Source: Populus alba (Eukaryota > Streptophyta > Magnoliopsida > Malpighiales > Salicaceae). From it: a stretch of DNA of 64,000 nucleotides. Below the pieces are notes generated by a model. The model searched no databases. It worked only from the letters and a program-made list of their open reading frames with translations, and was not told the origin of the DNA. Location of the stretch: NCBI RefSeq assembly GCF_005239225.2, contig NC_133301.1, positions 3,497,157 to 3,561,156 of the forward strand, read 5' to 3'. Within the stretch, counting starts at the first letter, position 1. Each line of letters opens with the position of its first letter. Below, piece by piece: positions 20,350 to 61,439 of the stretch. The position numbers and the translations under genes are program-made.

Positions 20350-20445
20350 GATGCCCCCTCTTTACAATGCTTACGAAGCAAAACTCCTCAAAATTTTGCA
20401 TAGTAAGCTTTGTAAAGAAAACAAAAGGAAAATGATTTCATTATC

Positions 20446-20815: not shown

Positions 20816-20816
20816 T

Positions 20817-23291: not shown

Positions 23292-23327
<36 letters not shown>

Positions 23328-24720: not shown

Positions 24721-26465
24721 TGTCGCACCCCGAAAAAAATCAGAAGGCGCGCGGCATCGGCTGGCGATTTTTCATCTCGTTGCGTAATGTTTGAATTTGG
24801 TTCGTTGGAGTCGCCACCTAGTAATTAATTTCGGGCTACTAGGAAACCGGATGTACTGGTCTTGTCAGAGATCGCGGGTAAGGAACTGGTTGTGGTTAGG
24901 GAAGGTATTAGCACCCCTAACGCACCCTACCTGAGGTAAGCTGCTTCGTGAATTTGATGTGTTAAAGAAGTTTTAATAATTGTCTTTTCATCGGAAATTA
25001 GAAATATCACTTACGTATAAGTTAATAATTCTTAACCGTGATCCAATCAAAATATTAAATTCTTCTTTAATATCTGCAATTTTATCATTAAAAAATAAAA
25101 AATATATATAAAAAAATAAAACACATACAAACACACACATTCACTTTCACTATTTTCTTTTCTTTTCTTTTTTTTGTCTTTTCTTTTACATCCATATTTA
25201 CAAAATACAAATAAAAATTCAATACTAAATAAATATTACATTAAACAATTCGGAAATTACAAAAATGACCCCAAAACACCCCTGAACAGTGGCAGGACGA
25301 CTTCTGGAGCTGCTGGAACAGCGGTGGCGCGTCGTTCCACGCGCCACCGTCACTGGCGGCGCGTGGATTCACGCGCCGCCGTGAGGAAAAAAGCAGGGGA
25401 TCAACCACGGCTTCCTCTCTTCTTCTCCTCCTCACCGGCGATGATGCTGTGACCTGAAAGATAACAAAAAACGCACACAACAGGCAGTTGATTTTTATTT
25501 TGTGTTCTTGGTTTTAAAATCTGCTTCGGTTTTTTTCTTCTTTCCGACAGATCTGCATGTGCTTCTTCTTCTTCTCCGGTGGCAGATCGGTCGTGGAGGA
25601 GGAGCTGTCGGTGGTCGATTGAAGCAGGAGTCCGGTGGCGGGTGGTGGAGAGATGAAGAAGACCGTGGGTCTGTCGCCGGTTGAAGATGGAAGATCGCCC
25701 GCTGCCGTTGTCCGTGGGTCTTGCTACTGTCGTCTGTTAGGCTCGCCGGTCGCGGTGCTGGGAGAAGGAAGGATAGATCGGTGGCAGAAGCTGGAAGGAG
25801 AAAAGTGGTTGTCTGTGGAAAATCAGAGGAGGTCTTGGCCGGGTAAGGGAGAAGAAGTAGGGGCCGGCGTGCAGGGGAGGTTGGTGTCGGCTGGGAGAAG
25901 AAAAAAAATAAAACCGGTGGGTTTGGGGCTGTTTGGCTGGGTGTGGGGAGCTGTGGCTGGGGGGGAAGGAAGAAGAGAAAAATAAAAAATCCAAAGGGTG
26001 GGGGGCTCCGGCGGCTCCCTTTGGTTAGAGAGGGATTTTAGGGTTTTTTGTGGTTTAGGGTTTTTTGTTGTATTTTCTGGTGTTTCCCAAAATTAGCCCC
26101 CCCCTTTTTGCAAGTGTTGGAAACCAGTATTTATAGACAAAAAGTTTTGCTAGGTTTTTCAACTTGGTCCTCAACTTCTTTCTTTTTGTAAATTTTGATT
26201 TTTCTTATTTTTTGTATTTTTTGAAACGAGCAATATCAACGTCGACTCAAATGTGGAAAATCAATGATTTAAAAATGACGCGTGAAAAGTCGAACACGTT
26301 TGAAAATCTTTTAACAATTTAAATTCTTTTTTTAGACGACGTTGAAAATGCTAAAATGATGAAAATATATTAAAAAACATATTTTTTGGATTTTCATTGT
26401 TTTTCTCTATTTTTGGATTTTTTGAAAATATATCAAAAACATGGGTCAAAAATTGGGTAGCAACA
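24721..26465 (-). repeat. 5' LTR of the 7.86-kb element
   Basis: 1745-bp copy of the LTR at 18608. Differences seen: homopolymer lengths near 25085, 25900, 25960, 26097 and 26135; a one-base loss in GGTCC near 26166; and one A/G change near 26254. Confidence 0.9.
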
Positions 26466-29673: not shown

Positions 29674-32407
29674 CTAATCCTCATCTGTCAAGGCTTCCCC
29701 TCCATCAGTAGCATTGCCTTCTTGTCCCTTGCAAGGACCATATGCCTTGCTACAAGCACGATAATATATGAAGTTAGCCAAACTCAAACCAGCAAGAAGC
29801 CAATAATAGTAATCGTAATGTCCCTTGTTAATGTTGCTTGAAAGCCAACTCTCCTGATCGTTTCCCTTGAAGAAGTTGCGCACAATAGTTACTAGCAAAC
29901 TTGCTATCAAGTTTGAAACAGACAGTCCCATCTCGAACAGATTGGAGGCTACACTAGACATGCTGTTGGGCAATTCAGTATAGAAGAACTCATTCTGTCC
30001 AATGCCACAGAAAGCCTCAGCAAATCCGGTTATGGAAAAGTATAGCAATAACCACAATGCTGAAATGTGCAGAACGGAATTAGGGTCATCATAAAATCCT
30101 TCTTTGATCGCAGTTTTTCGCCGAACACTCTCTATAATTGCCAAAGCTGCCATGGCAGCAGAGGATGATAGGATGCCAATTCCTATTCTTTGTTTTAAGC
30201 CGAGGCGAGTTGGTTTTCCCCTGATTTTTGATGCTAGAGGGATGGCTACACGATCGTAGAGAGCAATCCATATTACTGAAGAAAATAACTGAAATGCAGT
30301 GAAGGAGCCAGCAGGAACTTGGAATTTTGAAGTAATGTGCCGGTCCATAGTAGATGCCTGGAGGACTATAAAAGAGTGTTGGAGTACATTTATAGACATC
30401 AAGACCCCTGTGGACCATATTGGGATTACCTTGATCAGTGATTTAAGCTCTTCCACTTCATCTACTGTACAAAGACTCCATGGATTTGAAGCTCTTCCAT
30501 CTGGGATCAAGTCTTCTATAGGATTTCTAATGACGCAAGCTTTGTTTAGAAACCTAAGACAAAATATATGATACAAAACAAATTAATACTTTTTAGGAGT
30601 CATTATAGAATCCTGACACAATAGAATCCTATTGAGGTAAATCTTGGATATAAGACGGAAATTAATTTTAGGGCACAAAGTTTTTGAGCATATAATGATA
30701 CCTTAATTTTTCAGATGGGACGAGAAGTCTTGATCCTTTCCTATGATGATACACATCATCTGTGACTTGGGATGATAATTTGATACTTCTATTTCGAAAG
30801 GATGCCACCAAAACTCGAGCAAATCCATCCAGCCAGCCTGCCTTAGCCTTTGACTTGACATAAATGGGAGAAGCTAAGAAGAATGAAAGAGTTGACAGGA
30901 TCATGAGCACCAACAGGAAATTCCAAAAACCCACCTTCCACCCAAGTTATCTTGAATGTATAAAATACAGGTCATGGCAAGGAACACCGCAACCGAGACT
31001 GTCGCATAGTACCAGCGGAAGAAGCTCTCTAATATTCCAGCACGTTTGAGGCTGTCCCTCTTGCCCAACTGATCAGCGCCGAAGGCCAAGGACGATGATC
31101 TTATGCCGCCAGCTCCAATGGCCATGAGGCCTAATGAAGAATATAAAAGCAGAAGCTGCAATGTCGATGCGGATTCGCAACTGTCATGAAATTGGACACA
31201 AGGAGGTGGTCTTGCTCCTGGAATTATAGTTGTTAACCATAGTAGAATCACGCCCTGTACAATAAAATTAGGTTGATTGCTGCTATTGTGAGGTTGGTAT
31301 ATAGACTTGGAGTTAGTACTCTCTTTTCGATTTAGATGAATAGTTGGTCTTCTTTTCAATCTCACAATTCCATATTTCGAGAATTAAAACAATATTTTGA
31401 ACTTGAATCTCGTTTTGATGCAATGAGAACTGTAAATTCATGGATTCCTTTTTTATTTCTTAACTTTTGTTACAAAACCTTAGTTATTGGAATAAAAAAA
31501 TCTCTAATTTTTTTGACCCTTACAGCCGAGTAATCTCTCTCTCTCTCTCTCTCTCTCAATATGCACCAGCTTGAAGGAAATCGTCCATAAAGACAACCAG
31601 CAAACCCATCAATGGAGATTTCTCCCGGTGAAACTTTGTGATGTAAGTATCTCTTAAGTGACGACTATCAAAACAATCATGTGGTAAAAAACTCAAGTAC
31701 ATTCGATCCCTAATCTTCTTAACGATCATTGAATTAAAATCCTAAAGGGAAAAACAAAATCAATAAAATAAATCGGACATTTTTTAGGTGTAAGATTCAG
31801 TGGTTGTTAAACTATTGTACATAGGATCAAACCCTTCTAGCAAGCAATCTCAGTGAGAATAAAAAGGGATTCAATATTTTCTCTCTCTCTAACTTAACTC
31901 GATGATACGCATAACAACATCAACCAATTAACAGATGGAAAATGGACAAAATTAATCACAATGTAAGAAGAGCAAAGGTTATTATGTAGGATCTAGAATT
32001 ACCAGAAGGCAAGCAATACATCCAAAGCTGATCATGAAATACCGGCCCACATAAGTATCCGCAAGAAAAGCACCGATAAATGGCGTAAAATTCGTGGCAG
32101 CTGAATGAAGGTAGAGTATTTGTGCACCATTGACAGCATCAATACCATACTCTCTTGTCAAATACAGTATCAGGTTTGTCGAAAGCCCATAATTTGCCAG
32201 CCTCTCAAATGCCTCATTTACTATGACAAGTTACATCGAAAAACATATTCTGTGAAAAGGATAATCAGAGCATAATATACATGATTTTTTTTTTTTCAAT
32301 ATGTACGTACCTATGATAAATATCAAGGCTCTTAAGCCACCCTTAGTAGTACTGCTTCTCAAGAGCGGCTCTTTGATTTTCCCTTTATGATCTAAAGGAT
32401 CTTCCAT
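29674..32407 (-). CDS. NPF1-like transporter, copy 2, with a frameshift in exon 3
   Basis: Exons on the minus strand: 32407-32311, 32220-32003, 31254-30702 and 30553-29674, with the same intron positions and phases as copies 1 and 3. Start chosen at 32407: an in-frame stop lies upstream with no other ATG between. ExxER motif (EAFER) is near the start of exon 2. Exon 4 carries the family signatures FFYTELPNSMSSVASNLF and NINKGHYDYYYW. In exon 3 one base is missing between DNLG and WKVGF (near 30947), shifting frame. Within the next 30 bases three single-base additions relative to copy 3 cancel each other. All four changes are in short homopolymers. The total of 1748 nt is one short of a multiple of three. 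Either a recent pseudogene or an intact gene with sequence errors; the rest of the frame is clean. Membrane proton-coupled transporter, substrate unknown. Confidence 0.85.
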
Positions 32408-36387: not shown

Positions 36388-39377
36388 TTAAACTACATCA
36401 TCATCATCATCATCAATCAATCCTTCCCTAACATCTCCAGTAATGCCCTGTTGTCCCCCCTTACAAGGACCATAAGCCTTGCTACAAGCAAGATAATAAA
36501 TGAAGTTAGCAAAACCCAAACTAGAAAGCAGCCAGTAATAGTAATCATAATGTCCTTTGTTGATGTTGCTTGAAACCCAACTCTCTTGATTTGCTTCACT
36601 AATAAACCCACGAACATTACTTACTATAAAACTGGCCACCAAGCTTGCAGCAGACAGTCCAATACTAAAAAGATTCGAGGCCACGCTAGACATGCTTTTA
36701 GGCAATTCAGTGTAGAAGAGCTCATTCAGTCCAACACCATTCATAGCCTCAGAAAATCCAAGTAAGAAATAAAATGGCAATAAACACATTGCAGACATGT
36801 GCGTAACCGCGTCAGGAATATCTGAAATTCCTTCCCTGATTGCAGTTTCTCGTCGCACCCTCTCTATAATTGCCAGTACTGCCATGGAAGCAGCCGAGCC
36901 CAGAATCCCAATTCCTATTTTCTGTTTCAAGCCGAGACGTGTTGGTTTTCCCGTGATTTTTGATGCTAGAGGGATGATTACGCGATCGTATAGAGCAATC
37001 CACGTTGTTAGAGAGAGCAACATAAATGCATAGAATGATCCAGCAGGAATTTCAAATTTCGAAGTGATATGTCGGTTCATAGTGGATGCCTGGAGTAATA
37101 AGAAAGAGTTTTGACAAACATTTACAGACACCAACATCCCTGTCGACCATATTGGGATTACCTTTATTAGTGCTTTTAGCTCTTCTACTTGATCTACTGT
37201 ACAAAGACGCCATGGATCTGAAGCTCTTCCATCTGGCATCAAGTCTTCTTCAGGATTCTTAACCACACAAGCCTTGTTTAGAAACCTAGGACAAGATAAG
37301 ACAAAAGGAAATCCTTAAAGGAACTATCATATATAAAATTACCTTCTTAAGTGCTTCACAGGTAGGTTAATTACCTTATTCTTTCACTTGGCACGACAAG
37401 TGCAGATCCCTTCCTAAGATGATACAGCTCATCCGTGTCAGTTGAAGATAATTCAATCCTTCTCTTTCTAAAGGAGGCCACGAGAACTCGAGCAAATCCG
37501 ATGAGCCAGCTTGCCTTAGCCTTTGGCTTGACATAAATGGGAGAAGCCAAGAAGAACGAAAGAGTTGACAGGATCATGAGAACCACAGGAACTCCGAAAC
37601 CCACCTTCCAGCCCATGGCCTCTTGAATGTAAACCACACAAGTCATGGAAATAAATACAGAAGCCGAGGATATAACATAGTACCAACTGAAGAAGCTCTC
37701 TAATATTCCAGCATGTTTAAGGCTGTCCCTCTTGCTCAATTGATCAGCACCAAAGGCCAGGGAGCATGATCTTATGCCACCAGCTCCGATAGACATGAGG
37801 CCCAAGCAAAAATATAGAAACAAAAGCTGTGGTGTCGTCGCGTCGTTACTGCATCTGCTACTAAATTGGGCGCAGGAAGGCACCGTTGCCCCAGGAATTA
37901 TTGTTGTCAGCCACAATAGAACCATTCCCTGCACATTTATTTGATTCCAGTTAATTTTTTGACATGATCCAAAGTTTTGAGAATGTTTTTTTCCTACTTC
38001 TAGGCTTCAACTTCGTATTAATTAGAGAAGTGCAAACAACTTTAGTGTGTGTGTGTGATGAAGATTTGTCAATTTGGACATCACATGATAATAGGACTTG
38101 TTGAAGATTTTTATAAAAGGATTTAATTAAGAATAATATATATATATAATTAAACGTGTGTGTGTAAGGACTGATAACTGTATATTTTCCCAAGTAGCCT
38201 TGGTTTCGTAACAGCATCTCATTGCTTATTTATTAATTAATTCTTGTGAGATTGGCTTCCGAAACAAGCTATGGGTCCATCCATAAGCAGATATCTCACT
38301 ACTTATAAAATATTCAGAAATATAATAATAAAATATATTGTTGTTTTCATCAGCTATGTTAAAAGGAATTAATCATCCAGTAATAAAATATTACTGGTGG
38401 AGGAGGATTCAATTTAGGCGGCAGTGTTTGGAAACGTTGGAATGAGGTTTACATCGTGTTTAAAATTAAGTGAAAATGAAACTTATCAATTACGGGCTCT
38501 CTCACGTGGTGTTATATATATATATATATCTGAAGCTATTAATGAGTTCGATGTAAAATAATATATATTAACTCCAATATATTTTAAATGAAAATCCTTT
38601 AAATTTAAAATTTGTAGAGGTTATACTATAAAATATTATAAATTTTAAATTTAATTAAAAAAATTAACACGTTTAGTATATTAAAAATTATTTCAATTTA
38701 AAAAACTCATTGAAGAATAATTTTATATTAAATCTAAAGCATATTATTAAATGTTTTCCAGTGAATCTCTACTACAAGGTGGGAGTCTAGTCAATTGGTA
38801 CCTACTAACCTAACAAAATCATGATTCGAAATATATGAACACAAGATTAATTGTCTGTTTCCCCCCCTTTGAGATTAGCAATGGACTTAGTTAACCACTT
38901 TTGTTTGTGAGAGAATCGCCGGTGAGCGAGGCATAGATCCGTTGGCCGGACACATGATTGTCTTTGTGACAAACAGAAGGGAGAAAAATAGAAAGACAAG
39001 AGTGGAAAGAAATAATGTTACCAGAAGGCTCGCAATACATCCAAAGCCGATCATCGGGTATCGACCCACATATGTATCAGCAAGAAAAGCCCCAATAATG
39101 GGCATGAAATTCCCAGCAGCTGAGTAGAGGAAGAGTATTTGGGCACCGCTAGCTGCATCCATACCATACTCTCTGGTCAAATACAGTATCATATTTGTTG
39201 ATAGCCCAAAACTTGCTAGCCTCTCCAGTGCCTCATTTGCTGTCAAAACATGAATTTAAACCACATTACTTGAATCGTAAATATCTATAAGTTGCTGAAA
39301 GTGTTTTAAATACCTATGATGAAAAACAAGGCTCTTATGCCACCCTTCGGGCTGCTCAAGAGTGGCTCTGTGATCAT
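36388..39377 (-). CDS. NPF1-like proton-coupled transporter, copy 3, intact (577 aa)
   Basis: Exons on the minus strand: 39377-39314, 39239-39022, 37928-37375 and 37285-36388. They sum to 1734 nt with every junction in frame. The start is the first ATG after an in-frame stop. NPF proteins are 12-helix plasma- or organelle-membrane carriers. The ExxER motif is at residues 24-28 (EALER) in the first helix. ESFFSWYY, the long central loop, FFYTELPKSMSSVASNLF and NINKGHYDYYYW are all present. Length is normal for the family (about 570-600). It resembles the NPF1 clade (Arabidopsis NRT1.11/NRT1.12, legume LATD/NIP) in exon 4. The tail is an Asp run (residues near 572-576). Nitrate transport is possible but not shown by sequence. 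It is the only undamaged member of the local trio. Confidence 0.94.
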
Positions 39378-40689: not shown

Positions 40690-40869
40690 GTTGAGAATAA
40701 TAGAATGTGTTGGGTTGTGCCTTAGCCAACCTTCCTATTTATATAGAGGCAGTAGAACACTGCAATAACTGTAATGATTACAACATCCTATATTAGAATC
40801 CTATTCTGATAGATACATGAGTAACTGTAATGATTACAACATCCTATATTAGAATCCTATTCTATAATA
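40690..40869 (-). repeat. 3' LTR of the copia element
   Basis: 180 bp, with the same 5' and 3' ends as the copy at 43427. The purine tract lies immediately inside it. Confidence 0.85.
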
Positions 40870-40871
40870 TG

Positions 40872-43354
40872 CCCCCTCAAGCTGAGGGTGGGGGATCAAC
40901 CCGAAGCTTGAATCGAAAAGCAGTAAAGGATGCAACAGGAAGCGAACATGACGGGAAATATAAATACGGTGAGATGCAATGTCAAGACATCGATAACCAA
41001 GATGCGAGGAACTATATCCAAAAAACACACATGGAGAGGAACGAAAATCCAATTTATGATTATTATATGGACGCAGAAAAGGAAAACAAAGACACCCAAA
41101 GGTACGCAAAAAATGATAATCAGGAGACCGTTGAAATAAACAATCAAACGGAGAGCGATGGGAAAGAATAGGAGTACGCATGCGATTTATAAGATAAGCA
41201 GAGGTTTCAAAAGCATAATTCCAGAATCGAAAAGGTGTTTTACATTGCCCTAAAAGAGTAAGACCTATTTCCACAATATGCCTATGACGACGCTTTACTT
41301 TTTCATTTTTTTCATGAGTGTGGGGACAAATCAGACGATGATGAATACCAATGGTCTGAAAAAATATGGATAGTTTTCGGTATTCACCACCCTAATCAGT
41401 TTGAACAGATTTTATTTTTAAGGAAAATTGACGTTCGACAAGAGTTTGAAATTGATGAAAAATAGAGTAAACATCAGACTTGGCAACTAGAGGATAATAC
41501 CATACATATTTAGTATAAGCATCAACGAAGATAACAAAATAACGATAGCCATCTGAAGAAAAAAGAGGAGCAGGGCCCCATACATCACTAAAAATTAATT
41601 CAAGTGGAGCAGAAGTTTTGTGACCAGTAGGTCCTAAAGACAAACGCGATGATTTTCCTAAAGGACAACTTTGACATTGAAAATTAAGACGTTTGTTGTT
41701 ACAAATAATCTTATTTTTCAAGATTAACAATTGAAAGATACGTGAAGTAGGATGACCTAGTCGACGATGCCATAAATCGGCAGAGGCAGAAGTGCAGGGA
41801 GACCAATAGGCTTGAGGAACTGACGTGACGGAAGACTTGGTCAGGGCATAGAGACCATCTTTACTCTGACCTGAGAGAAGGACTTCATGGGTGTTGAAAT
41901 CCTTGACATAAAACATACGAGGGTGAAATTCAAAATAAACATTATTATCAAGACAAAATTTCTGAACAGAGAGCAGAGGTTTTGTGATTGCAGGAACATG
42001 AAGAACATTAGATAAGGTGAAAGAACGATGTGGTGTATATATTTTTGTATGACCAAGATGAGATATAGGAAGGCCCTTACCATCACCAACATGCAAATTA
42101 TCATTACCAAGGTACGGTTCTGAAGCGGTCAAGGTGGCAAGATCAGGTGTGACGTGTTGATTGGCACCGGTATCTGGAAACCAATCAACAGAACCGGTTG
42201 AGGAGAGATTACGCTGCACCAGGTTGGCAGTAGGTTGTTGGCCATAACCTCGTTGCTGGAATTGAGGGCAATGGGGAGCTGTATGGCCGAAATTTTGACA
42301 CAGTTGACAGCGTGGATTCTGCCCCCTATTACGCTGCCAAGAGCCTTGCCTATTGTCACCGAAGGAGGAGTTTTGGAAGCTGCGGTGATGAGGTTTGGAG
42401 CTAGCAAATCGGTTGCCTCTGCTGTTGGACTCGTTGGGACGCCAGCCACCGTTGAAGCGGCCCCTACTACGGCCAAAGTTGCCAAAAGTCTGGTGCTGTG
42501 CAACAAGAGTAGAAGATGGAATGCTGGGTGTGGGCAGCAGAGGAGCATGTATGGAAGCAGAAGATTTGTGAAGAAATTCATGTGTGAGGAGATGGCTATG
42601 AAGATCTGCATATGATAAAGGTTCAGCCTTGGTAATAAGACTGGTAACTAAGTCTTTAAACTCTCCTCGAAGACCACGAAACACATATAAATTGAAATCT
42701 TCAAGTGAAACTGGCCGACCAGCAGCGGCCAATTCATCAAATAAGGCCTTCGCTTTTTGCATAAATTGAGTTATTGATTCATCATCCTGTCGAAGATCCT
42801 GAAGAGAGCCGTGAAGTTGCATAATACGAGAGTTGGAGGTGGAAGCGAGAGTTCGCTCAAGAGTGCCCCAAGTTGAACAAGAACTTTGACAACCAACAAC
42901 AAGATGCAAAACTTTCATAGATAGGGAGGAAAGAAGAGCACTTAGAATGAGTTGGTCCTGTTGTTTCCAGGTTTGAAAAAGCGAATTTACCTGAAGAGAG
43001 ATACCATCATGGGCAAGAACATGTGTTGGAGCCATCAACAAAACCAAAAACTCCTTGGCCTAGGAGATAAGGTAGCATTTGCATACGCCAATATAAATAA
43101 TTGGTGTTTGTTAATTTGAGGGAGATGACTTGATGAGTGTGAGAAAGAGAGATAATGCTTGCGGCAGTAGAGGCAACAAACGTGGCCTGCAAGAGGAGGC
43201 GTTCATCAGCCATGGCAGAGGAGAATCCAGGCGGTGACGTAGTAGAGGAAAGCAGAGGAGGCTCTGCAAGAGAAGAGGGCTGCACTGTTGGAGAAGAAGA
43301 AAGCTGGACTGCTGGTGCTGCAAAATTTGAAGATTTATGTGGTGGCTGTTCCAT
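40872..43354 (-). pseudogene. copia gag-protease-integrase polyprotein, broken
   Basis: Starts at 43354 (MEQPPHKSSN). One frameshift near 43020 joins the N-terminal 110 residues to a 551-codon frame (43047-41392). Gag is followed by a CCHC zinc knuckle (CQLCQNFGHTAPHC), the protease active site DTGA (WFPDTGANQHV), and the integrase zinc-binding region (LWHRRLGHP...CQSCPLGK). The integrase core begins FSDVWGP. TAG interrupts after VQTD at 41392; the frame then continues GGEYRK to about 40872. The third catalytic acid of integrase, expected in NG..ER.H, reads K (NEKVKRRHRH). Both the TAG and the E-to-K change fit single G-to-A transitions. There is no RT or RNase H. Confidence 0.87.
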
Positions 43355-47335: not shown

Positions 47336-49319
47336 AAGCAAAATTGTTCACATGCTATGTAAATAGTGGAGTGTGGAAAAGGTGAAGCATAAAAAGAAAG
47401 GGAATAAAAAGAAGAAGAGGGACTGACCTCGCGGTGAGGTGTTGTTCATGGTGGCGGTGTTGTGGCAGCAGGCAGCAGTTCCTCCTCCTTTTTTCTTATG
47501 TTTCTGTGTTGCTTCTTCTTTTTGTTTCTATTCCCACGCTTCTTTGTTCCTTCTTCTGTTTTTCATGGTGGTGTTGCTGTTATTGATTGTGGCTCAAGGT
47601 AGTTCTTGTGGCGGTGAAAAGGAAGGTAAGTAGTGGTGCCCCTTTTTTTCCTTCTCGTTCCTTCCTTCTTTTTGTTTCCTCCCTTCTCCTTTCCTTTCCT
47701 TTTCTTTCTCTGTTTTATGTCCTTTTGTTTAGTTCTTCTTTTTGTCCTCTTTTTCTCCATTTCTCTCTTTTTCCTTCATCCTCTATTATTAAACAACCAC
47801 CCCCATCAACTCTTTTTCTCGGTCTCCCCCTATTTTTCACCTCCTTTGTTTCCTTCTCTCTATATTGTCCCCTCTGTTTCAAATCGCTCCCTCAACCTTC
47901 TCTCTATGTCTTTCTCTCCGTTTTGTTCTCTCTCTCTCTTTGGTCCTCTAAAAAAATTCTTCAATGTTCTCTCAAAAGTCTCCTGCAAATTGTCCCCCTT
48001 TTTCATTCTCCTCACTCTGGTATTTATAAGGGGAAAAAGGGAGAAAGCCACCTTACCCTGTCCAATCGCGTTGAATGGTTAGGGTGGCTAGACGACCACT
48101 ATGCAGCATCTGTAGGGCTTGTCTCCTATGCTTTTCCATCTTAGGAGGCCAATAGGCGTGGTGGGTCTTGTCAGTTTTGGGTTTTTTAGGAGAGAGAGGG
48201 AAATAAGTGTTGCAGGGGACAAAATCTCCTTCTTACCCTGCCTTTGCGTGTCTAGTGGAAGAAGGAGATGTACTGTGTCGTTCAAAACAACACTGTTTCC
48301 CCTATTTTTTTAATAGTGGATGAAACAATGTCATTTTGAACAAAATGCGCCGGATCATTTAAATGCAAATGGCATCAAAGATGTCAATTTCCAAATTGGT
48401 CCTTAATTTTTTATTTATTCAATCAAGTCAATTACAATTTTGATTTTAAAAATCAATTCAATTGCATCCCTGCCAAATAGAATGTCAGCCTTAAAGTTGG
48501 CCACCTTTTTCATTTTGGTCTTTGGTCTCGGATTTATGCAATTTGACCCTCAATTGATCAATAACCTATCATTTTTTTCAATTTAGTCCCTGATAGTCAA
48601 TTCTTGTTCCTCTATTTACATGACTTTTCCAGTTTGGTCCTTCATTTCAGATTTGTTCAATCAAGTCCCTAATTGGCCATCAAACTTCAATAGTTTTTGG
48701 AACTAAGTCCCTGATTTAACCAAATCAATTCTAAAAAATTATAATTTGACTGCTGAACTTTAATTTCTTCTAATTAAAGCCTAAATTGACTTAAAAATTA
48801 ATATTTCTTGCAATCAAACCCTTCATAAATTCAATTGAACCTTCAATAAAATTTAATTGAGTCCATAAACATCTGATTTTGGAATTGTTTTCTTAAATTG
48901 AATTTTCTTAGTCAATAGGGCTCTTATTAGTAAAAAACATACTGTCAAATTTTAATATTTGTATTTTAAAACCTCTTCAACCAATTTCTAGCCATTTTAT
49001 GGGTGCTCTGACATCCTCTTCTTTCTCCTATTATTTTTTGAGATTTTTTGGTTTTATTCAACGTATTGTTTTTGTTTAATTTTTGAAGAGAAACAAATGA
49101 ATTTGAGGAATAACTCAAAATGGGTTATGACAATTGTCCCCCTCTTTACAATGATTGTGATAGAAAGTCACGTAGAAAACTTTAGATAATAGCTTTGTAA
49201 AGAAGAGAAAGAAAATGATAATAAATTCACCATATCAAGAAATGATGAATTGTTTTGAAAGTATTTAAAGTGAGGGCTAGAAAGCGTTCTCAAAGGTGAA
49301 ATTCAAATATTTTGAAATG

Positions 49320-50100: not shown

Positions 50101-51149
50101 TTGAAGAGTCTTGAAGGGAGAACATGATAGGGCTCAAAAGGAGAGAAGGGCTCAAAGGCCCCCTAGAAGGAAGGTAAGGTTGAGAAACACACTACCTGAA
50201 ATATAAGGGCTCCAAGATGAACTTGAAAGTAGGTAGAGTTAGAAAAGGCACTACCTAGAGATGAGAGTTTAAAGGTGCACTTAAAGGAAGTGAGGGCTCC
50301 AAGGCGCACCCGAAAAGAGATAGGGTTAGAGAAAGCACTATCCAGAAGATAAGGGCTCAAAGGCGCACTTAAAAGAAAGTGAGGGCTCGAAGGAGGATAC
50401 GAAAAGAGGTAAGGTTAGAAAACATACTACCCAAGAGGTGATGATGGTATACCAGTCTGTTAATGTTGAAAGGAATGTATTCTGATCAATATGCATGTAT
50501 ACTTACTTGAGAAATATAGGTCCCCTTTTCTTCATGGAGTCTTTATTTTCTCAATCTTTATTTTCTCAAAAGTTTGAGTCTTGGTAGTAAACTTCGATGG
50601 CCTTTTCACTATTACTTACTCAAGTCACATCTTGTGATCTTGACCTTTGGGAATGGCTTGATATTAGCATAACTCTTAGCCCTCCAACCTTTATCTCAAA
50701 GGTCACACCAGTTATGCCCTACATTTGATTTTCTTAGAGAGGGAATCATGAAGCCAGCCCTACCATGTGTTTTTGAATTGCCCCCTAGCTTGAACATGCC
50801 CTTAAGTGTTCAATTTGAATTTTCTTTAGGGATGAGGCTATGTGAAAGAAGGTTTGGTTAGTGATAAAAAGTTGGTTTCATGTAGAACTTTTGGAATTTC
50901 AAAGCTACTCTAGACACACAAATCATTTTGACATCTATTTAAAGCAAACTTATTATGAAGAGATTCAAGTAATTCCTATGGACAAGTTTTCATAAGTGAT
51001 GAAAGAATTTTTGTTTTGCATTTGGTGAAAATGTGCAGTGATGTTTTGTTGGTAAACAAATGATTCAAGATTCAAACTGAGCGTTTCAAAGAACCAATCT
51101 TCAAAGCATTCACTTTATTTGCATGACTAATGAAGCTTGTTTCTCATGG

Positions 51150-51768
51150 TTCCACCTATTTTCTCTTATGTTTATGCATTGCTTCTTCTTTATGTTTCTA
51201 TACCCCCCGCTTCTCTGTTTCTTCTCTTGTTTCTAACAGTAGTTGTGTTGTTGTCGATGGTGGCTTAGAGCAATTCTTGTGGCGGCAACAAGGAAGGTAA
51301 GCAATGGTACCCTTTTTTTTCCCTTCTTGTTCCTTCCTTCTTTCTATTTCCTCCCTTCTCCTTTCTTTTCCTTTTCTTTCTCTATTTTATGTCATTTTCT
51401 TTCACTCCTCTATCTCTTATCTTTCTCTCCTTTATGTCTCTGTTTCTCTCTCTACCTTCGTCCTCTATTCTTAAACAACCATCCCCCTGTCAGCTCTCTC
51501 TTTGGTCTCCCCTAATTTTTTACCTCCTTTGTTTCCTTCTCTCTATATCATCCCCTCTGTATCAAATAGTTCCCTCAACCCTCTCTCTAAGTCTTTCTCT
51601 CCCTTTCATTCTCTCTCTTTCTCTGGTCCTAAAAAAAAAAAACTCTTCAATGTCCTCTAAAAAACTCTCCTACAAATCATCCCCACTTTTGTTCTCCCTA
51701 CTTTGGTATTTATAAGGGGAAAAGGGGAGAGAGCCACCCTACACTGTCCAATCACTTCGAATGGGTAG
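51150..51768. repeat. LTR piece of the old relic, left of the Athila insertion
   Basis: Parallels 47490-48080: CATTGCTTCTTCTTTATGTTTC, TTCTTGTGGCGGCAACAAGG, a long CT-rich stretch, then TATTTATAAGGGGAAAAGG. Its continuation lies beyond the Athila element at 60575. The long open frames in it are a result of the CT-rich composition. Confidence 0.75.
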
Positions 51769-52065
51769 TGACACGACCAAAAGCTTGATGTCTTCTCCCA
51801 AGTGCAGGAGTGTCGAAGTAATAAATAACCCGGCAAGACCGGGGTCGAACCACAGAGAGGTTAATTGTATAAATTATAAATAACAAGACAACAACAACAA
51901 CAACAATAACAACAACAATAATAACAATAATAATAACTATTATACTCAGTACGTGGCGTTGTTATACCTGAGAATGATCTAAAGATCGGGTCACAGGTTT
52001 CCAGCCTATATACTGAGTTTATGAAAAGATCAAATATATATATTATGTAATATAAACAGAATGTA

Positions 52066-52097
<32 letters not shown>

Positions 52098-53510
52098 AAG
52101 CAGAAGATGAAGAAATTAATGAGAACTTTGAGATGAAAGATTAACGTAAGGATTAAACAATGATAAAAACAAATGTCAAGGTTAGAGAATCCACTAATGG
52201 TACTTCAAACAAGTATAATATAAACTCTTATTACTCAATTGGAAACCACATATAAAGGAGGTTCCATTCAGATTATAAATTATTAACATGATTACATTAG
52301 TTATCTTATTCGAATAAAGCTAATACTTGTAAATGTTGGCAGGCATTCATGATTATAACTTATGTTAACAACAAATCAAGTTCCTTTCACAGCTCAGGTG
52401 TCGGTTATACCATACAGTATGAGCTATGAAAGTGCCAAGTATTTGTTGTACCAAGTGTTATACAACATAAATCTAGATTAACCATTTAACAAGCAAAGTA
52501 TTAAAAGTGAACAAGATAACAAATATAAAACATGTTAGTATCCAACGTTAAGGTCCATGTTAAGTTTATATTATACTTATTCTTACACCATTAGTGTACC
52601 CTTTTCACCTTGACATAATTAACTTAGCTGAACATAATGAAAGAAAGAAACATAAATGAACAAGATAAGAACATAAATGAGAAAGACGTTAACTAAGTAA
52701 AAGAAAGGAAATGAAGTGCATAAACTTGATATTAATGAAAGAAAAGCATAAGCAATACAAAGAGAGAAAGCAAGAGCATGATCTTGATCTGGAAACCAAG
52801 ATGCCTCAATACATGGTAAGTGCCTCCTTTTATAGGCCAAAATTTGGAACTATTGATTTGTTGACTAATTGATGAGTGGGTGGCCATATCTTGACTAGAT
52901 AACAATCCTTATCTTCTTGTCTAATCAAGACGTCATTGCTAACATCATAATTTGCCCAGAATCCTCAAGAATGTTCTAGGAAATTATCTCAGCTTTCCAA
53001 CAAAAAAAAGATGAGGTCATTTGGACTTCTAGAACTCAAGATATGGGCTGAACACTAAATAGTGTTTGGGCTGCAGGACAGCTTCGGACTTCTTCGTTGT
53101 TCCTTCCATTTGGACTTCAAAACGACCTTTTCAAATCTTGGGCTCCTCATGAAAGTTGTAGGCCTTTGTCTTACCTTTCCATCCATATAAAGTGGACCTA
53201 AATCCGAAATCTAGAGCTCCAGATATGATCCAATTACCGAGCAATGTTCCGGTTTGGACTACACCGACATCTCTTTTTCTAAGTTTGGCCATCTCTTTGT
53301 CCTTTAACTTTCAATGCTTAAACTCATCAATCAATCCTTTTATTTATGTGATAGTCCTGCATTTAAAATGAGCATTTACCATAAATTAAGGTATCTTATA
53401 ATATCAAAGTTGTTATTATAAAACATGCTTTAGTTAAGGAGTTATTGATACTTCAAGTGCAAAATGATGATATAAAACCTTGATAAACATGCACTTTTAA
53501 GTACTAATCA
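51769..53510 (-). repeat. 3' LTR of the Athila element
   Basis: 1742 bp with CAA/AAT microsatellite blocks at 51885-51950 and 52065-52095. It differs from the right LTR by five one-base length changes in short homopolymers. Confidence 0.92.
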
Positions 53511-54750
53511 CACCCCCAACCAGCTTATTACTAGTCCCTAGTAATCTAAAGCGTTAAAATAGAGAAACAATTTGCAAGTTCCACAAAGCAAGGCATTCAT
53601 CATTCAACTTCCATTAATCTATCCAGATAAACAAACTCTCATTAAATTTATATTCCTGCTTCATACTTCTTAAACAAGATATTAATAAACCTTCTTTTTG
53701 TGTGCTCAATGAAAACATAGATGATGGGGCTTTTGTTGGAAGAAAACAATATTATGTTCAAATGTTTAAGGTGAACTTCCTTGGGTTGGGATTATTTTTT
53801 TTTTTCTTTTTATTTATATACACATACAACTTAAAACACAATGTATCTTTAACCCATGTAACGAGTTTTAGGCTAATGACTCCCAGACCAGTTGGTCTTA
53901 GGGCATTAGGTGTTGAGACACCCCTACGAGCTTAACAACTCGGGTTGCAGATACTAATACGTAGATAGTGCAATGTTTGATTCCCTTAAGCTTTTCTCCT
54001 TAACCCATGTAACAAGCTTTGGGCCAATAGCTCCCAAGTCAGTTGACTTTAGGGTATTAGGTGTTAAAACACCCCTTCGGGCTTAATTGCTTAGGTTATG
54101 GAGGCTACGAAACCAAACTTATCCACGTTTTATTATCATCAATACTATCTTTCTTTTTTTTTCTTTTTTTTCTTTTTTTTTTTTTCTTTTTTTTCTTTTT
54201 TTTTCTTTTTATTAATTATATACTATCCTTTACCCTTAGTTGTTACCTTCAACAAAAGAACATAATTACTGTAATAATCCAATGTGCAACCCACAATCAT
54301 ATGTTAAAGTGTGTGTGTGAAAATGAAGGTTTAATAATACTTGTTAAATGAGTATATGAGCAGAATCAAGTGATAACAATGTGAGAGTTTGTAAACCTGA
54401 ATATTTCAAGAAGTATTATGATAGACCTTGGTAATGAAACTTACTAAGATGCGTCTCTAGAGTCAATAAAATTGATTCCATACTCTGCCATCCTAATAAC
54501 AATTTTGTCAAATGGTTTTAATAATAGCAAAAACAGTTAGCAAGTTAGTATTTTTTTTTTTTTTTAAACTACTACCCTCTCCCCCCAACCAAAACGAGAC
54601 ATTGTCCTCAATGTTCGAAGGTAGAAAGATAGAGTATAGAAGACATCACCTGAAACAGCGAACAATGACAAACCTGAAACACACTTAAACAAACATAAGA
54701 AGTAACAAAACAAAATAATATGCTATTAATAAAACCAAAAGACACAAGGT
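53511..54750. other. Noncoding 3' part of the Athila element
   Basis: Contains two related blocks of about 190 bp with TAACCCATGTAACGAG, CTCCCAGACCAGTTG and GGCATTAGGTGTTGAGACA-like words (53848-53960 and 54000-54110). T-rich runs also occur. The conserved GAGGACAATGTCTCGTTTTG on minus lies near 54590-54612. That last motif is usual between the coding part and 3' LTR in this family. No protein is supported here. Confidence 0.65.
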
Positions 54751-54751
54751 T

Positions 54752-55398
54752 TCACAGATGAAGGCTCAAATCTAATCTAAGCTTTTTACGGCTTTCCTTA
54801 GTTGACCAATCTAGACGACTCATGCAGGGATCAATGACAGGGATGAAAGATTGTAGTTGGTCAATCAATTGTTCAGCAGTAGCAGCAGAAATTATGATTC
54901 GTCGTGTCGAAGAAATTCCTGTTCCACAGCTTGATCAAGGAAAGACAGCAACTTATCATAAAAACCATTAACATTGAACAAACCTATGGGTTTATGGTGA
55001 ATGTGCAGTTGGGCCCAAGATGAAATATGAAAGATCTCTTCCAATGTGCCCAGACCACCTGGTAATGCAATGAAGGCATCAGCATGGTTAAACATGGTAT
55101 TCAGTCGGTCAGACATTGTTGGGACCTGTAGTTCTTCTCCAATTGTTTTTCCAATGATGTCCCCATTTGCTAAAGCTTTGGGGACAACCCCCAAAACTTG
55201 ACTGCCTCCTAAAAATGCAGCCATTGACACACCTCCCATTAACCCAAGGCTACCTCCCCCATACACTAAATGAATCTTTCTCTCAGCTAGTACCCGACCA
55301 AGATGATTTGCTGATTCTAAAAACTCTTTTTCTTTCCCAGAACTGGATCCACCGAAAACACAAATATTTCTTATATGATGACTTGAGGAACCTGCCAT
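54752..55398 (-). pseudogene. Captured, intron-free LOG-type cytokinin-activating enzyme, C-terminus frameshifted
   Basis: An open frame of 168 codons (55398-54892) encodes a LOG family protein. LOG enzymes release active cytokinin bases from their riboside 5'-monophosphates in the cytosol. Visible motifs: a Gly-rich N-terminal strand (ICVFGGSSSGK), VYGGGSLGLMGG, the conserved Arg in TMSDRLNTM, and the family signature PGGLGTLEE near residue 115. After FLRHDES a stop follows. The rest of a LOG C-terminus (RRIIISAATAEQL ... LDWSTKESRKKLRL, stop at 54752) is readable in another frame, so one indel removed about 45 residues. The catalytic core is complete, but the last helices are lost. There are no introns, although the plant LOG genes I know have several. 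It is sense to the element and sits where integrase core would be. Confidence 0.88.
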
Positions 55399-55462
55399 TT
55401 CTACACACTTCTATATTTGATGAATATATGGGATGAGTAGAAATGAAGGGAAGGAAGAGAAG

Positions 55463-55470
55463 AATTTATA
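55463..55470 (-). promoter_or_regulatory. Candidate TATA box of the captured LOG gene
   Basis: TATAAATT on the minus strand, about 65 bases upstream of the LOG start, with a (CT)n tract at 55530-55550 further upstream. This suggests that the captured piece includes promoter or 5' leader sequence and not only coding sequence. Confidence 0.45.
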
Positions 55471-55759
55471 GATGAAAAAGTGAAAATGCAATCATACCAC
55501 CTATATGTAGGCCAGCTGTAGTCTCACAAACTCTCTCTCTCTCTCTCTCTATTAATTATTTATTTTGAAAAAGCATGTATGTACAGGTAGTTGTGATTGT
55601 GGCTCACATCTTCCCTTGGTTTTACGTCCAAGAACGGCTTAAACGCCCTCTATGGGTCGGGGATAGGCTTCCCATCCAGTTTTCTTAAAAACTGGCAAAC
55701 AGGGTCTTTTTTAGTCAGATTCCCAAGACTAAGTCGATCATGTTCTTTATGGAATTGTG

Positions 55760-58090
55760 TCATAAGTCATGAAATGCACAATGCACATTGCCACCAGGAT
55801 ATGTTGCAAAAGTCAATAAAAGATTATCCAAAGATTCCTTATGTCTTGAAATAAATCCTGACTTTTGACAATTTTCACAAGTTTTGCAGAACACATGTGT
55901 GTCTTTGAACATGGTGGGCCAATAGAATCCAGATTGTAAGATTTTTACAGTCGTCCTTTTCGACGAGAAATGACTCCCACATGCTTCAGAATGACAAAGT
56001 TTAATGACATTACTTACCTCATTGTCGGGAATGCATTTTTGAAATATTTGATCAAGACAATTTTTGAATAAGTAAGGGTCATCTAAGTAAAAGTTCTTCA
56101 CTTCGTTTAAAAACTTTCCTTTGTCTTCGGTACTCCAGTGAGCTGGCAAATCTCCTGTTGCAAGAAAATTGATATTTTTAGCAAACCAAAGCATTGAACT
56201 GAGAGAAAGTAAGGATTCTTCAGGAAAGTAATCATCGATTGGTGTGATGTCAGATATCAAATCTGTTGTCACTCTTGACAAAAGATCGGCATCAATATTT
56301 TCGGTGCCTTTTTCATCCGTTATTTCTTCCTGAGAATAAATCATTTGCAAATCTTCATATTCATCCAACTCAATTTTACTCAAAGTAGATTCAAGTTGAT
56401 CATGAACTAATTCTTCAATATGATCTACTTCTTGTAAATCATTATCATCTCCAGGTTGCTTGCAAACGTTGAAAATATTCATCTCCAATGTCATGTTTCC
56501 AAAAGATAACTTCATGAGTCCATTCCTACAATTAATCAATGCATTAGAAGTTGCAAGAAATGGACGTCCTAAAATAATAGGAAATGAATTACATGCTTCA
56601 ACAGGTTGCGTGTCCAAGACAATAAAATCCACAGGATAAATGAATTTATCGACTTGTACTAACACATCTTCGATTATTCCTCTAGGCACTTTTACAGATC
56701 TATCGGCGAGTAAAAGAGTTACAGAAGTTGGTTTTAACTCACCTAGATTGAGACTTTGAAAGACTGAATATGGAAGTAAATTCACACTAGCTCCAAGATC
56801 AAGTAAGGCTCTTTCAATTTTATGTTCTCCAATAAAGCAAGAAATTGTAGGACAACCAGGGTCTTTATATTTCAAAGCATTATTGTTCTGAAGAATGGCA
56901 CTTACTTGTTCGGCTAAAAATGCTTTCTTTTTCACATTCAATTTTCTCTTCACAGTGCACAGATCTTTCAAAAATTTAGCATAGGAAGGAACCTGTTTAA
57001 TAGCATCCAACAAAGGTATATTGATCCTTACCTGTTTGAAAATTTCAAAGATTTCAGAGTTGTGATTGACTTTCCTTTGTTTGGTCATGGCATGAGGAAA
57101 TGGAAGTGTTGGCGGGGAATCAGCCTTTTCTTTGCAATGTTCAGGTTCAACCCCTTCCATACCCTCAGAGATAGACTCATCATCTTTCTCACAAGGTTCA
57201 AGAATGGGTTTTTCAATAACCTTACCACTACGAAGAGTTATGACTGATTTGACTTGATCCATGTGTTGGCTTCCAGAACCACTTGCATTTGCATTGTATT
57301 GCCCCTTTGGATTTTGTTGTGGTTGAGATGGAAACTTACCTTTCTCTTGGAAACTGAGAGCAGATGTTAATTTTGCAAGAGCATCTTTAAAATCTGTCAT
57401 GCTTTGAGCAAGTTGAGTGTTGATTGTCTCCTGCTTTTCAATGAATGCATGCAATGTTTCCTCAAAATTTCTTTTAGGAGGTGGAGCATAAGGAGGTGCA
57501 TATCCATGAGAATTTTGGAAATTATGGTGTGCTTGAAACAGTGGATGTGAAGTTTGTGCATTGTTGCTATCACTCTTCCAACTAAAATTTGGGTGATTTC
57601 TCCAACCAGGGTTATATGTTTGTGAGTATGGGTTATGGTTGGGTCTTTGGAAACTGTTTAAAGCATGGGCTTGTTCATGGAGGCATTCCTTGAAAGAAGG
57701 CAAAGTTGGACAATCATTTGTTGAGTGTTCCTTGGTTTCACAGATTTGACACACAATGTCTTGAACAAATTTTAATTGACCACTCTTTTTCAATTCAAGT
57801 GCTTCGACTTTTCTAGCTAAAGATGCAAACTTTGCTTGGAGGTCATGATCTTTCCTAAGGTTGTGCATACCTCCACTAGATGTATGAGGTTGAGTTTTAC
57901 TTGGTGCCTCATAAGTACCTGTGGTGTCCCAATTTTGAGCATTTTCAGCTAGCAAGTCTAGGTACTCCATTGCTTCATTAGGGTCTTTATCTTCAAAAGT
58001 TCCATTGCACATCAATTCAACCATTTGCCTATCTCTAGGTGTTAAACCTTCATAAAAATGTGAAACCAATCTCCATGTTTCAAAAACCAT
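55760..58090 (-). CDS. Athila gag C-terminus/protease/RNase H end/integrase zinc finger (776 codons, RT deleted)
   Basis: One uninterrupted frame. Residues 1-110 are the end of the retrotransposon gag domain. A CCHC zinc knuckle (CQICETKEHSTNDC) is at 114-127. The aspartic protease with active site DLGASVNLLP lies near 430 and ILGRPFLAT near 500. Around residue 595 the sequence passes directly from the post-protease region to KGTENIDADLLSRV, which is the last part of RNase H. RT and most of RNase H have therefore been cut out without loss of frame. The integrase zinc-binding region (CHSEACGSHF ... CKTCENCQKSG) follows at 700-745. The last 30 residues (after ISRHKE) match nothing I recognise, marking a second deletion junction just before the LOG capture. 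Frame retention over 2.3 kb suggests youth. It continues the gag frame at 58123-58668 through two one-base T additions. Confidence 0.85.
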   Translation of the reverse strand: MVFETWRLVSHFYEGLTPRDRQMVELMCNGTFEDKDPNEAMEYLDLLAENAQNWDTTGTYEAPSKTQPHTSSGGMHNLRKDHDLQAKFASLARKVEALELKKSGQLKFVQDIVCQICETKEHSTNDCPTLPSFKECLHEQAHALNSFQRPNHNPYSQTYNPGWRNHPNFSWKSDSNNAQTSHPLFQAHHNFQNSHGYAPPYAPPPKRNFEETLHAFIEKQETINTQLAQSMTDFKDALAKLTSALSFQEKGKFPSQPQQNPKGQYNANASGSGSQHMDQVKSVITLRSGKVIEKPILEPCEKDDESISEGMEGVEPEHCKEKADSPPTLPFPHAMTKQRKVNHNSEIFEIFKQVRINIPLLDAIKQVPSYAKFLKDLCTVKRKLNVKKKAFLAEQVSAILQNNNALKYKDPGCPTISCFIGEHKIERALLDLGASVNLLPYSVFQSLNLGELKPTSVTLLLADRSVKVPRGIIEDVLVQVDKFIYPVDFIVLDTQPVEACNSFPIILGRPFLATSNALINCRNGLMKLSFGNMTLEMNIFNVCKQPGDDNDLQEVDHIEELVHDQLESTLSKIELDEYEDLQMIYSQEEITDEKGTENIDADLLSRVTTDLISDITPIDDYFPEESLLSLSSMLWFAKNINFLATGDLPAHWSTEDKGKFLNEVKNFYLDDPYLFKNCLDQIFQKCIPDNEVSNVIKLCHSEACGSHFSSKRTTVKILQSGFYWPTMFKDTHVFCKTCENCQKSGFISRHKESLDNLLLTFATYPGGNVHCAFHDL

Positions 58091-58122
58091 GATGTGGGCA
58101 AGTATTAAGCAAATCTCGATAC

Positions 58123-58668
58123 CTATCCCAACATTGGTAAAAATGTTTCTCCTGGTTTTTGAGTGAAAGTGATGATTTGTCTTTTGAAAGAGTTTGTTCT
58201 GTGAGATGGAAAAAACTTCTTTAAAAATTGTTGTTGCATTTCATCCCAAGCACGAATGGATCCCGGTCTCAAATTTTGTAGCCATGTTTTAGCTTTATCT
58301 TTTAATGAAAAAGGAAAAAGCTTTAATCGAATGATGTTCATGCTACAATTTGAGTCATTATAGGTATTACAGACCTCCTCAAATTCCCTTAAATGCAAGT
58401 ATGGATTTTCTAAGTCTAAGCCATGAAAAGATGGTAAAAGTTGAATAATGCCTGGCTTAAAATTAAAATGAGATGCATCAGGAGGGAAAACTATGCATGA
58501 GGGTGCACTTGTTCTTGTGGGATTCATGTGGTCTCTAAGTGTTCTCATACGGTTATTCTCATTATTCTCATTATGAAGCGATTGATTATCTTCTTCAGCC
58601 ATATTTTCTGAAAATGATGAAGATACCCTACAAAGTCGACCACTTAATGTACGTGACCAAACTCGCAT
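58123..58668 (-). CDS. Athila gag, N-terminal part
   Basis: 181 codons starting MRVWSRTL; an internal Met before AEEDNQSLHN is another plausible start. It carries the retrotransposon gag core (PSFHGLDLENPYLHLREFEE, LFPFSLKDKAKTWLQ, FLKKFFP). The frame ends early at KPGETF because of an extra T near 58140. The next 17 codons (YQCWDRYRDLLNTCPHHGF) are in the shifted frame. A second extra T near 58085 leads into the 776-codon frame. Both sites are T runs, so an intact gag is possible if they are sequence errors. Confidence 0.85.
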   Translation of the reverse strand: MRVWSRTLSGRLCRVSSSFSENMAEEDNQSLHNENNENNRMRTLRDHMNPTRTSAPSCIVFPPDASHFNFKPGIIQLLPSFHGLDLENPYLHLREFEEVCNTYNDSNCSMNIIRLKLFPFSLKDKAKTWLQNLRPGSIRAWDEMQQQFLKKFFPSHRTNSFKRQIITFTQKPGETFLPMLG

Positions 58669-58833
58669 GCACGTGTAAAAAGAGAATAAAAGGAAGAAAG
58701 GAGAAGAGAAGAAAAAGAAACAAAAGAAAACAAAAGAAACAAAAGTTAAATAAAATGAAAGTGAAAAGAGAAAATGAAATAAATATTATAATTTATACAA
58801 GAATTTACCTCCCCGGCAACGGCGCCAAAAACT

Positions 58834-59130
58834 TGACACGACCAAAAGCTTGATGTCTTCTCCCAAGTGCAGGAGTGTCGAAGTAATAAATAACCCGGCA
58901 AGACCGGGGTCGAACCACAGAGAGGTTAATTGTATAAATTATAAATAACAAGACAACAACAACAACAACAATAACAACAACAATAATAACAATAATAATA
59001 ACTATTATACTCAGTACGTGGCGTTGTTATACCTGAGAATGATCTAAAGATCGGGTCACAGGTTTCCAGCCTATATACTGAGTTTATGAAAAGATCAAAT
59101 ATATATATTATGTAATATAAACAGAATGTA

Positions 59131-59162
<32 letters not shown>

Positions 59163-60574
59163 AAGCAGAAGATGAAGAAATTAATGAGAACTTTGAGATG
59201 AAAGATTAACGTAAGGATTAAACAATGATAAAAACAAATGTCAAGGTTAGAGAATCCACTAATGTACTTCAAACAAGTATAATATAAACTCTTATTACTC
59301 AATTGGAAACCCACATATAAAGGAGGTTCCATTCAGATTATAAATTATTAACATGATTACATTAGTTATCTTATTCGAATAAAGCTAATACTTGTAAATG
59401 TTGGCAGGCATTCATGATTATAACTTATGTTAACAACAAATCAAGTTCCTTTCACAGCTCAGGTGTCGGTTATACCATACAGTATGAGCTATGAAAGTGC
59501 CAAGTATTTGTTGTACCAAGTGTTATACAACATAAATCTAGATTAACCATTTAACAAGCAAAGTATTAAAAGTGAACAAGATAACAAATATAAAACATGT
59601 TAGTATCCAACGTTAAGGTCCATGTTAAGTTTATATTATACTTATTCTTACACCATTAGTGTACCCTTTTCACCTTGACATAATTAACTTAGCTGAACAT
59701 AATGAAAGAAAGAAACATAAATGAACAAGATAAGAACATAAATGAGAAAAGACGTTAACTAAGTAAAGAAAGGAAATGAAGTGCATAAACTTGATATTAA
59801 TGAAAGAAAAGCATAAGCAATACAAAGAGAGAAAGCAAGAGCATGATCTTGATCTGGAAACCAAGATGCCTCAATACATGGTAAGTGCCTCCTTTTATAG
59901 GCCAAAATTTGGAACTATTGATTTGTTGACTAATTGATGAGTGGGTGGCCATATCTTGACTAGATAACAATCCTTATCTTCTTGTCTAATCAAGACGTCA
60001 TTGCTAACATCATAATTTGCCCAGAATCCTCAAGAATGTTCTAGGAAATTATCTCAGCTTTCCAACAAAAAAAAGATGAGGTCATTTGGACTTCTAGAAC
60101 TCAAGATATGGGCTGAACACTAAATAGTGTTTGGGCTGCAGGACAGCTTCGGACTTCTTCGTTGTTCCTTCCATTTGGACTTCAAAACGACCTTTTCAAA
60201 TCTTGGGCTCCTCATGAAAGTTGTAGGCCTTTGTCTTACCTTTCCATCCATATAAAGTGGACCTAAATCCGAAATCTAGAGCTCCAGATATGATCCAATT
60301 ACCGAGCAATGTTCCGGTTTGGACTACACCGACATCTCTTTTCTAAGTTTGGCCATCTCTTTGTCCTTTAACTTTCAATGCTTAAACTCATCAATCAATC
60401 CTTTTATTTATGTGATAGTCCTGCATTTAAAATGAGCATTTACCATAAATTAAGGTATCTTATAATATCAAAGTTGTTATTATAAAACATGCTTTAGTTA
60501 AGGAGTTATTGATACTTCAAGTGCAAAATGATGATATAAAACCTTGATAAACATGCACTTTTAAGTACTAATCA
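58834..60574 (-). repeat. 5' LTR of the Athila element
   Basis: 1741-bp copy of the left LTR with the tRNA-Asp-type primer site six bases to its left. Confidence 0.92.
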
Positions 60575-61410
60575 GGTAGGGTGGCAGGGTGGCCATTAGG
60601 CAGCCACACGTAAGGCTTGCCTCCTTTATTTTTTCATCTTGGGAGGCCAATAGGCGTTGGTCTTGTTGGTTTTGGGTTTTTGGGAGAGAGAGCGAAATAG
60701 GCATTGCATGAGAGAAAATCTCCTTCTTCCCTTGCCTATACATGTCTAGGTGAGGAAGGAGATGTACAGTGCTATTCAAAACGACATTCTTTTCCCCTCT
60801 CTTTTTTAATGGTGGATGAAACTGTGCCGTTATGACCAAAACACGTCGTTTCATTCAAATGAAATTGGTGCCAAAGAAATCAATTTCCAAATCGCTCTTT
60901 AATTTTTATTTATTATATCAAGTTCTTAATTGTAATTTTGATTTTAAAAATCAATTCAATTGCATCCCTACCAAATATCATGTCAGCCCTAAAGTTGACA
61001 ACCTTTTTAATCTCGAACTTTGGTCTTGGATTTATGCATTTTGACCCTCAATTGATCTATAAACTTCTATTTTCTATAATTTAATCCCTGATTCAGTCAA
61101 TTTCATTCCCTTTATTCACGTGTCTTTTAATGTTTGGTCCTTGGTGTCGGATTTCTTCAATCAAGTCCCTAATTGGCCATCAAACTTCAATATTTATGCA
61201 ATTAAGTCCCTGATTTGACAAAATCAACTCTTTAAAATATTAATTTGACACCTGAACTTTAATTTCTTCCAATTAAAGCCCAAACTGACTTAAAAATCAA
61301 TTTTTTTTGTAATCAAGCTCTCAATAAATTCAATTAAACCTAGAATAAAATTTAATTGAGTCCATAAACATCTAATTTTGGAGTTTTCTTCCTCAAATTA
61401 AACATTCTTT
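60575..61410. repeat. LTR piece of the old relic, right of the Athila insertion
   Basis: Continues 51150-51768 and parallels 48060-48910. It has GGAGGCCAATAGGCG, GAAGGAGATGTAC, TTTTGATTTTAAAAATCAATT and AAGTCCCTAATTGGCCATCA. It departs from that copy near 61410. Confidence 0.75.
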
Positions 61411-61439
61411 GTCAACAGGGCTCTCCTTAAAATTTGGGT

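Follow-up and report, generated by a model that had tools for sequence, protein, structure and literature searches.

A young, probably Athila-like LTR retrotransposon of Populus alba carrying a nearly complete LONELY GUY coding sequence

A long terminal repeat (LTR) retrotransposon of 8.8 kb, located on the minus strand at positions 51769-60574 of a 64,000-nucleotide stretch of Populus alba contig NC_133301.1 (hereafter, the window), is a real, young gene-capture element that holds a nearly complete LONELY GUY (LOG) coding sequence as cargo. The reading that we consider quite probable is the transduction of a host LOG gene, now the cargo of a non-autonomous, probably Athila-like Ty3/gypsy element. 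In the proposed mechanism, the LOG sequence and its upstream region would have been joined to the element by read-through or template switching during reverse transcription, and splicing of the sense transcript would have removed the LOG introns. An autonomous relative would afterwards have copied, in trans, the resulting chimera, which is devoid of reverse transcriptase (RT)/RNase H and of the integrase core, and the insertion at its present position would have taken place very recently.

The anatomy of the unit is that of an inserted LTR retrotransposon, comprising paired LTRs, TG..CA ends, a target site duplication (TSD), a primer binding site (PBS) and gag. The 5' LTR (58834-60574, minus strand) and the 3' LTR (51769-53510, minus strand, with TG...CA ends) are 99.7% identical to each other, and the TSD GGTAG is read at both element edges (51764-51768 and 60575-60579). 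A G-rich tract adjoining the 3' LTR (53511-53521, minus strand), also read directly, is likely the polypurine tract. The element splits an older LTR, whose left half (51149-51768) is similar to 47478-48082 and whose right half (60580-61424) is similar, over 60610-61424, to 48112-48924. When the two flanks are joined (1465 bp) and compared with this related LTR (47478-48924), which represents the empty site, the alignment is continuous across the insertion point, with 80.7% identity. Taken together, the LTRs, the TSD and the older LTR aligned through the insertion point reveal a single coherent insertion and a contig that is collinear across the element. Hence, LOG is indeed enclosed by intact LTRs and a target duplication, as a first-pass annotation of this DNA had proposed. 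A host LOG gene with element fragments scattered around it was also considered, and is ruled out by LTRs, TSD and empty site.

Concerning its age, the element is very young: over 1744 alignment columns its two LTRs are separated by no substitution (0), and differ by 5 single-base indels. At substitution rates of 1.3e-8 and 7e-9, the 0 substitutions translate into an upper bound of about 66-123 thousand years. The indels are all (five of five) one-base run-length changes, an outcome with a probability of 0.0003 if indels made up one fifth of real mutations, which is an assumed share. This looks like the product of run-length assembly errors, the simpler reading of the LTR differences, at about 5 per 3.5 kb, suggesting that single frameshifts elsewhere in the window call for caution. 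An assembly that appears to carry such errors might also be suspected of having created the LOG block as a chimeric join, which we regard as extremely improbable, given that two breakpoints within a coherent unit would be needed and that collinearity holds across the element for the LTRs, the TSD and the older LTR that it splits.

Not all LTR pairs of the window are alike. The pair 18608-20349 / 24721-26465 differs by 4 substitutions and by 7 gaps, each one or two bases long. It bounds a second LTR element (18608-26465) with 1.74-kb LTRs, a 5-bp duplication TGCCT and an internal repeated stretch near 20815-21711. A third pair (10013-10462 / 13432-13881), with 1 substitution and 0 gaps, forms the 450-bp terminal repeats of a short LTR-type unit (10013-13881) that has GGCTC on both flanks and a 250-aa internal frame with no Pfam match. 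The window also contains Copia-type gag and integrase-region frames (40852-43059, minus strand), as well as three PTR2-family transporter copies at 8381-9883, 29677-31383 and 36391-38006 (minus), the proteins of the second and third being about 65-70% alike and those of the first and second about 47%.

Coding content of the LOG-bearing element is reduced. Its gag ORF (58123-58668, minus strand) matches Retrotrans_gag (PF03732), and is followed by a 776-aa frame (55760-58090, minus strand) that matches an aspartic protease weakly, scoring 22.8 bits where the Pfam cut-off is 24.3 bits, and contains an integrase H2C2 zinc-binding domain (PF17921). RT, RNase H and integrase core gave no Pfam match in the three long frames of the element or in 7 small frames; the latter, taken from around the insert (7 of 22 frames listed), had no match in 7/7 cases, and the element contains no further stop-to-stop frames of at least 140 aa beyond its three long ones. 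Judging from these frames, pol is apparently heavily deleted and, on this evidence, the element would be unable to copy itself and would have been copied in trans. A pattern scan of the 776-aa frame against viral contigs yielded 0 matches and a tRNA scan 0 genes. As the first-pass annotation had stated, LOG lies in sense with gag/pol, all of them being on the minus strand.

Assignment to the Athila lineage of Ty3/gypsy, which we consider probable, is based on the PBS and on tail motifs. The PBS, TGGCGCCGTTGCCGGGGA (58810-58827, minus strand), was read directly and is what we take to be the complement of the 3' end of plant tRNA-Asp. PBSs complementary to tRNA-Asp are linked with the Athila lineage. 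Other hallmarks of the lineage are its place in RT/RH/integrase phylogenies and the lack of an aRH domain, and in this copy RT, RH and integrase core had no match. The Athila ORF-1 domain PF03078 was not matched in the frames scanned; this domain is found in just 16% of Athila elements (PMC6317226), and is thus not required for membership. Extra ORFs are described by Neumann et al. in most elements of the Ogre/Tat/Athila superclade (PMC6317226).

The captured gene is represented by a 168-aa ORF (54892-55398, minus strand), identified through the motifs GGGSLGLMGG and PGGLGTLEE, Pfam, NCBIfam and solved relatives. The motif PGGxGTxxE defines LOG, i.e. cytokinin riboside 5'-monophosphate phosphoribohydrolase, and is present in the frame as PGGLGTLEE. 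The frame scores 120.4 bits with PF03641 Lysine_decarbox (cut-off 27, E 7.6e-35) and 163.1 bits with the NCBIfam model TIGR00730 (cut-off 96.35), and matches PDB 2a33 with E 2.5e-50. A chance ORF is ruled out by the PF03641 and 2a33 E values. Among 17 solved relatives that it matched, two LOGs of Arabidopsis rank first, At2g37210 (E 2.5e-50) and At5g11950 (E 6.8e-45), and the alignment with the former covers 156 residues without gaps, 83 of them identical (53%); solved relatives at this level of identity point to the fold of the predicted protein. The NCBIfam LOG equivalog NF058542 reaches 110.5 bits, below its curated cut-off of 300, but it is a model for bacterial and archaeal annotation, so that this score limits the exact name and not the assignment to the wider LOG family. 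Apart from its own locus, the LOG protein has no match within the window (the next hit has E 2.9), and its 9 pattern matches to viral contigs gave 0 confirmed ones.

The gapless alignment of 156 residues also establishes that the LOG frame, with both motifs, has no introns, just as the first-pass annotation had described it. Peanut LOG genes contain 3-7 exons, mostly 7 (PMC13257298), and set against them the gapless frame supports transduction, with introns that would have been lost relative to the donor LOG gene. It should be noted that transcription of an LTR element should lead to splicing of any gene that it holds in sense; the loss of introns would thus reflect passage through RNA and not necessarily a first capture from mRNA.

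The coding sequence continues past the stop at 54892 in another frame, which reads RRIIISAATAEQLIDQLQSFIP... and ends with a stop at 54752. This C-terminal piece (54752-54904, minus strand, 50 codons plus stop) gives a weak match to At2g37210: its first 35 residues align with residues 172-206 at E 0.24, weak on its own yet collinear with the main match and the better of 2 hits. A full-length uninterrupted LOG frame is absent, the two pieces being separated by a small frameshift. The C-terminus, previously described as lost, is therefore there, out of frame at 54904-54752, and the suggestion that truncation gives a LOG with an altered dimer has no ground, for the same reason. Since run-length errors are likely in this assembly, the frameshift may be genuine or an artefact; by default, and barring such an artefact, no full-length enzyme would be produced from this copy.

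Both borders of the insert were inspected for traces of how it arrived. On the 5' side, a (GA)n tract and TATAAA precede the LOG start codon (55399-55590, minus strand), with TATAAA at 55470, 72 nt before the ATG; this region is possibly a former promoter/5' UTR, and the insert thus seems to include former promoter sequence of LOG. Farther upstream, the pol-like reading ends near 55830, as judged by eye, and a Pfam scan of three frames located in 55555-55766 gave no match. The segment that separates LOG from the integrase zinc-binding domain (55590-55830, minus strand) may be what is left of pol, or else another captured fragment. On the 3' side, the LOG region runs into ATTGAGGACAATGT (54612-54599, minus strand) and a G-rich stretch, a combination that we take to be typical of Athila-like element tails; the motif was accordingly read as the start of the non-coding 3' tail. 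The earlier placement of LOG between an integrase fragment and the 3' tail of the family holds for the integrase side, with the PF17921 domain preceding LOG, and probably for the tail, as judged from the Athila-like motifs.

The upstream TATAAA and GA-rich stretch, which lie beyond the normal 5' end of an mRNA, raise the question of whether LOG was acquired as genomic DNA from an already intronless donor and not via spliced RNA. We consider this rather unlikely, in view of the 3-7 exons of peanut LOG genes (PMC13257298); moreover, a sense gene in an LTR element would be expected to shed its introns at the next round of transposition anyway.

A different origin would be the arrival of a LOG retrogene (e.g. 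LINE-mediated) or of a DNA fragment in an element that had already been mobilized, or in an event unrelated to its mobilization, with LOG as a passenger of this single locus. It is true that the LTR and TSD evidence dates the element and not the LOG join, and that no second copy was seen within the 64-kb window, neither the internal region nor the LTR having a blastn match elsewhere in it (E 1e-3). A run of 15 A in LOG sense is also present at 54565-54551, beyond both ATTGAGGACAATGT and the G-rich stretch and some 190 nt downstream of the LOG stop. The Athila-like motifs would place this run in the element's own tail, yet it could be a poly(A) remnant, which lowered our confidence in transduction. 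Flanking duplications are, however, absent from both borders: at the border near LOG there is no common word of at least 9 bases between the two sides (8-base words: 2 seen against 2.9 expected from shuffles), at the border set at the 15-A run there is none either (8-base words: 1 seen against 1.0 expected), and the 5 bases adjoining the run do not recur in 55399-55860. The lack of common words argues against a separate later insertion, and the lack of a flanking duplication at either border favours transduction or template switching during element replication over a separate LINE-type retrogene. A late arrival would also have had little time, considering the 0 LTR substitutions and the bound derived from them, and LOG is present in Ty3/gypsy consensus sequences of other plants (PMC9289625). 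On balance, we consider such a late landing quite unlikely.

Transduction of a host LOG gene during the element's replication remains the preferred reading. Transduced genes are usually in sense orientation (PMC7264820), and the sense orientation of LOG supports it as well. The earlier proposal that a host LOG was taken into the element is accordingly well supported by an intron-free sequence, in sense, within a young LTR/TSD unit and with no flanking duplication of its own.

Retrotransposon capture of hormone-activating genes makes it possible to examine directly if plant development is altered by mobile elements, and the 0 LTR substitutions make this copy young enough for its source element to be, perhaps, still present and active. 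A far-reaching extension, which we consider very unlikely, would be a currently mobile non-autonomous family in which a working LOG has taken the place of RT and integrase, so that a cytokinin-activating enzyme under LTR control is spread through the genome. If true, such a family would parallel, in plants, the acute transforming retroviruses, whose viral genes are replaced by a growth gene, and local cytokinin could favour the element through division of the cells where it transposes.

LOG-like cargo has precedents. Steinbauerova et al. 2011 reportedly described two Athila-like elements similar to LOGL4. The YgdH domain, known otherwise from the LONELY GUY family, was found by Alvarado-Marchena et al. 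2022 in two Citrus species, C. sinensis and C. clementina, within Ty3/gypsy consensus sequences, and also, without the five-consensus filter, in Ty3/gypsy of Populus trichocarpa, a finding stated there to be in line with Steinbauerova et al. 2011 (PMC9289625). In the literature searched, no report joins LOGL4 with a retrotransposon, and LONELY GUY occurs together with Athila in PMC9289625 alone. A 2026 review describes Bs1, a TRIM element and Rider-sun, its main text making no mention of cytokinin or Athila (PMC13317346). Given that gypsy elements of several plants contain LOG-family sequence, either capture took place repeatedly or a lineage with LOG is old, as these occurrences suggest.

Regarding gene capture in general, the first-pass annotation had considered it much rarer for LTR elements than for Pack-MULEs and Helitrons, and thereby implied too low a frequency. 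Published figures speak against it: LTR elements have captured 672 genes in rice, and the count for sorghum is 1,343 (PMC3726574, abstract; section 6 of that paper puts the 1,343 under rice), and 8% of NLR genes in tomato, 18% in potato and 5% in rice lie inside LTR elements (PMC5664825). In its favour, captured genes are reported to derive mostly from Helitrons in maize and from Pack-MULEs in rice (PMC7264820), and fixation or stable gain of extra domains by LTR elements has been called rare (PMC9289625).

The LOG-bearing locus is new as far as tested here, and LOG capture by gypsy elements is already in print; the present case fits the existing reports and opens no new class. Maize Bs1 is not known to hold replication genes. 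Closest by description are the YgdH-containing elements of Citrus and P. trichocarpa, which, like this one, are plant Ty3/gypsy LTR retrotransposons carrying LOG-family sequence; their consensus sequences were found via their RT, whereas this copy has no RT match (PMC9289625). Bs1 is likewise a plant LTR element with transduced cellular gene sequence, but contains segments of three genes, none of them full-length, whereas the element described here holds one nearly complete coding sequence (PMC13317346). LTR-retroduplicated NLR genes of pepper and other plants share with this LOG a host coding sequence that lies inside LTR elements and has lost its introns, although they belong to another gene family and are present in many copies, in contrast to the one LOG copy found here (PMC5664825).
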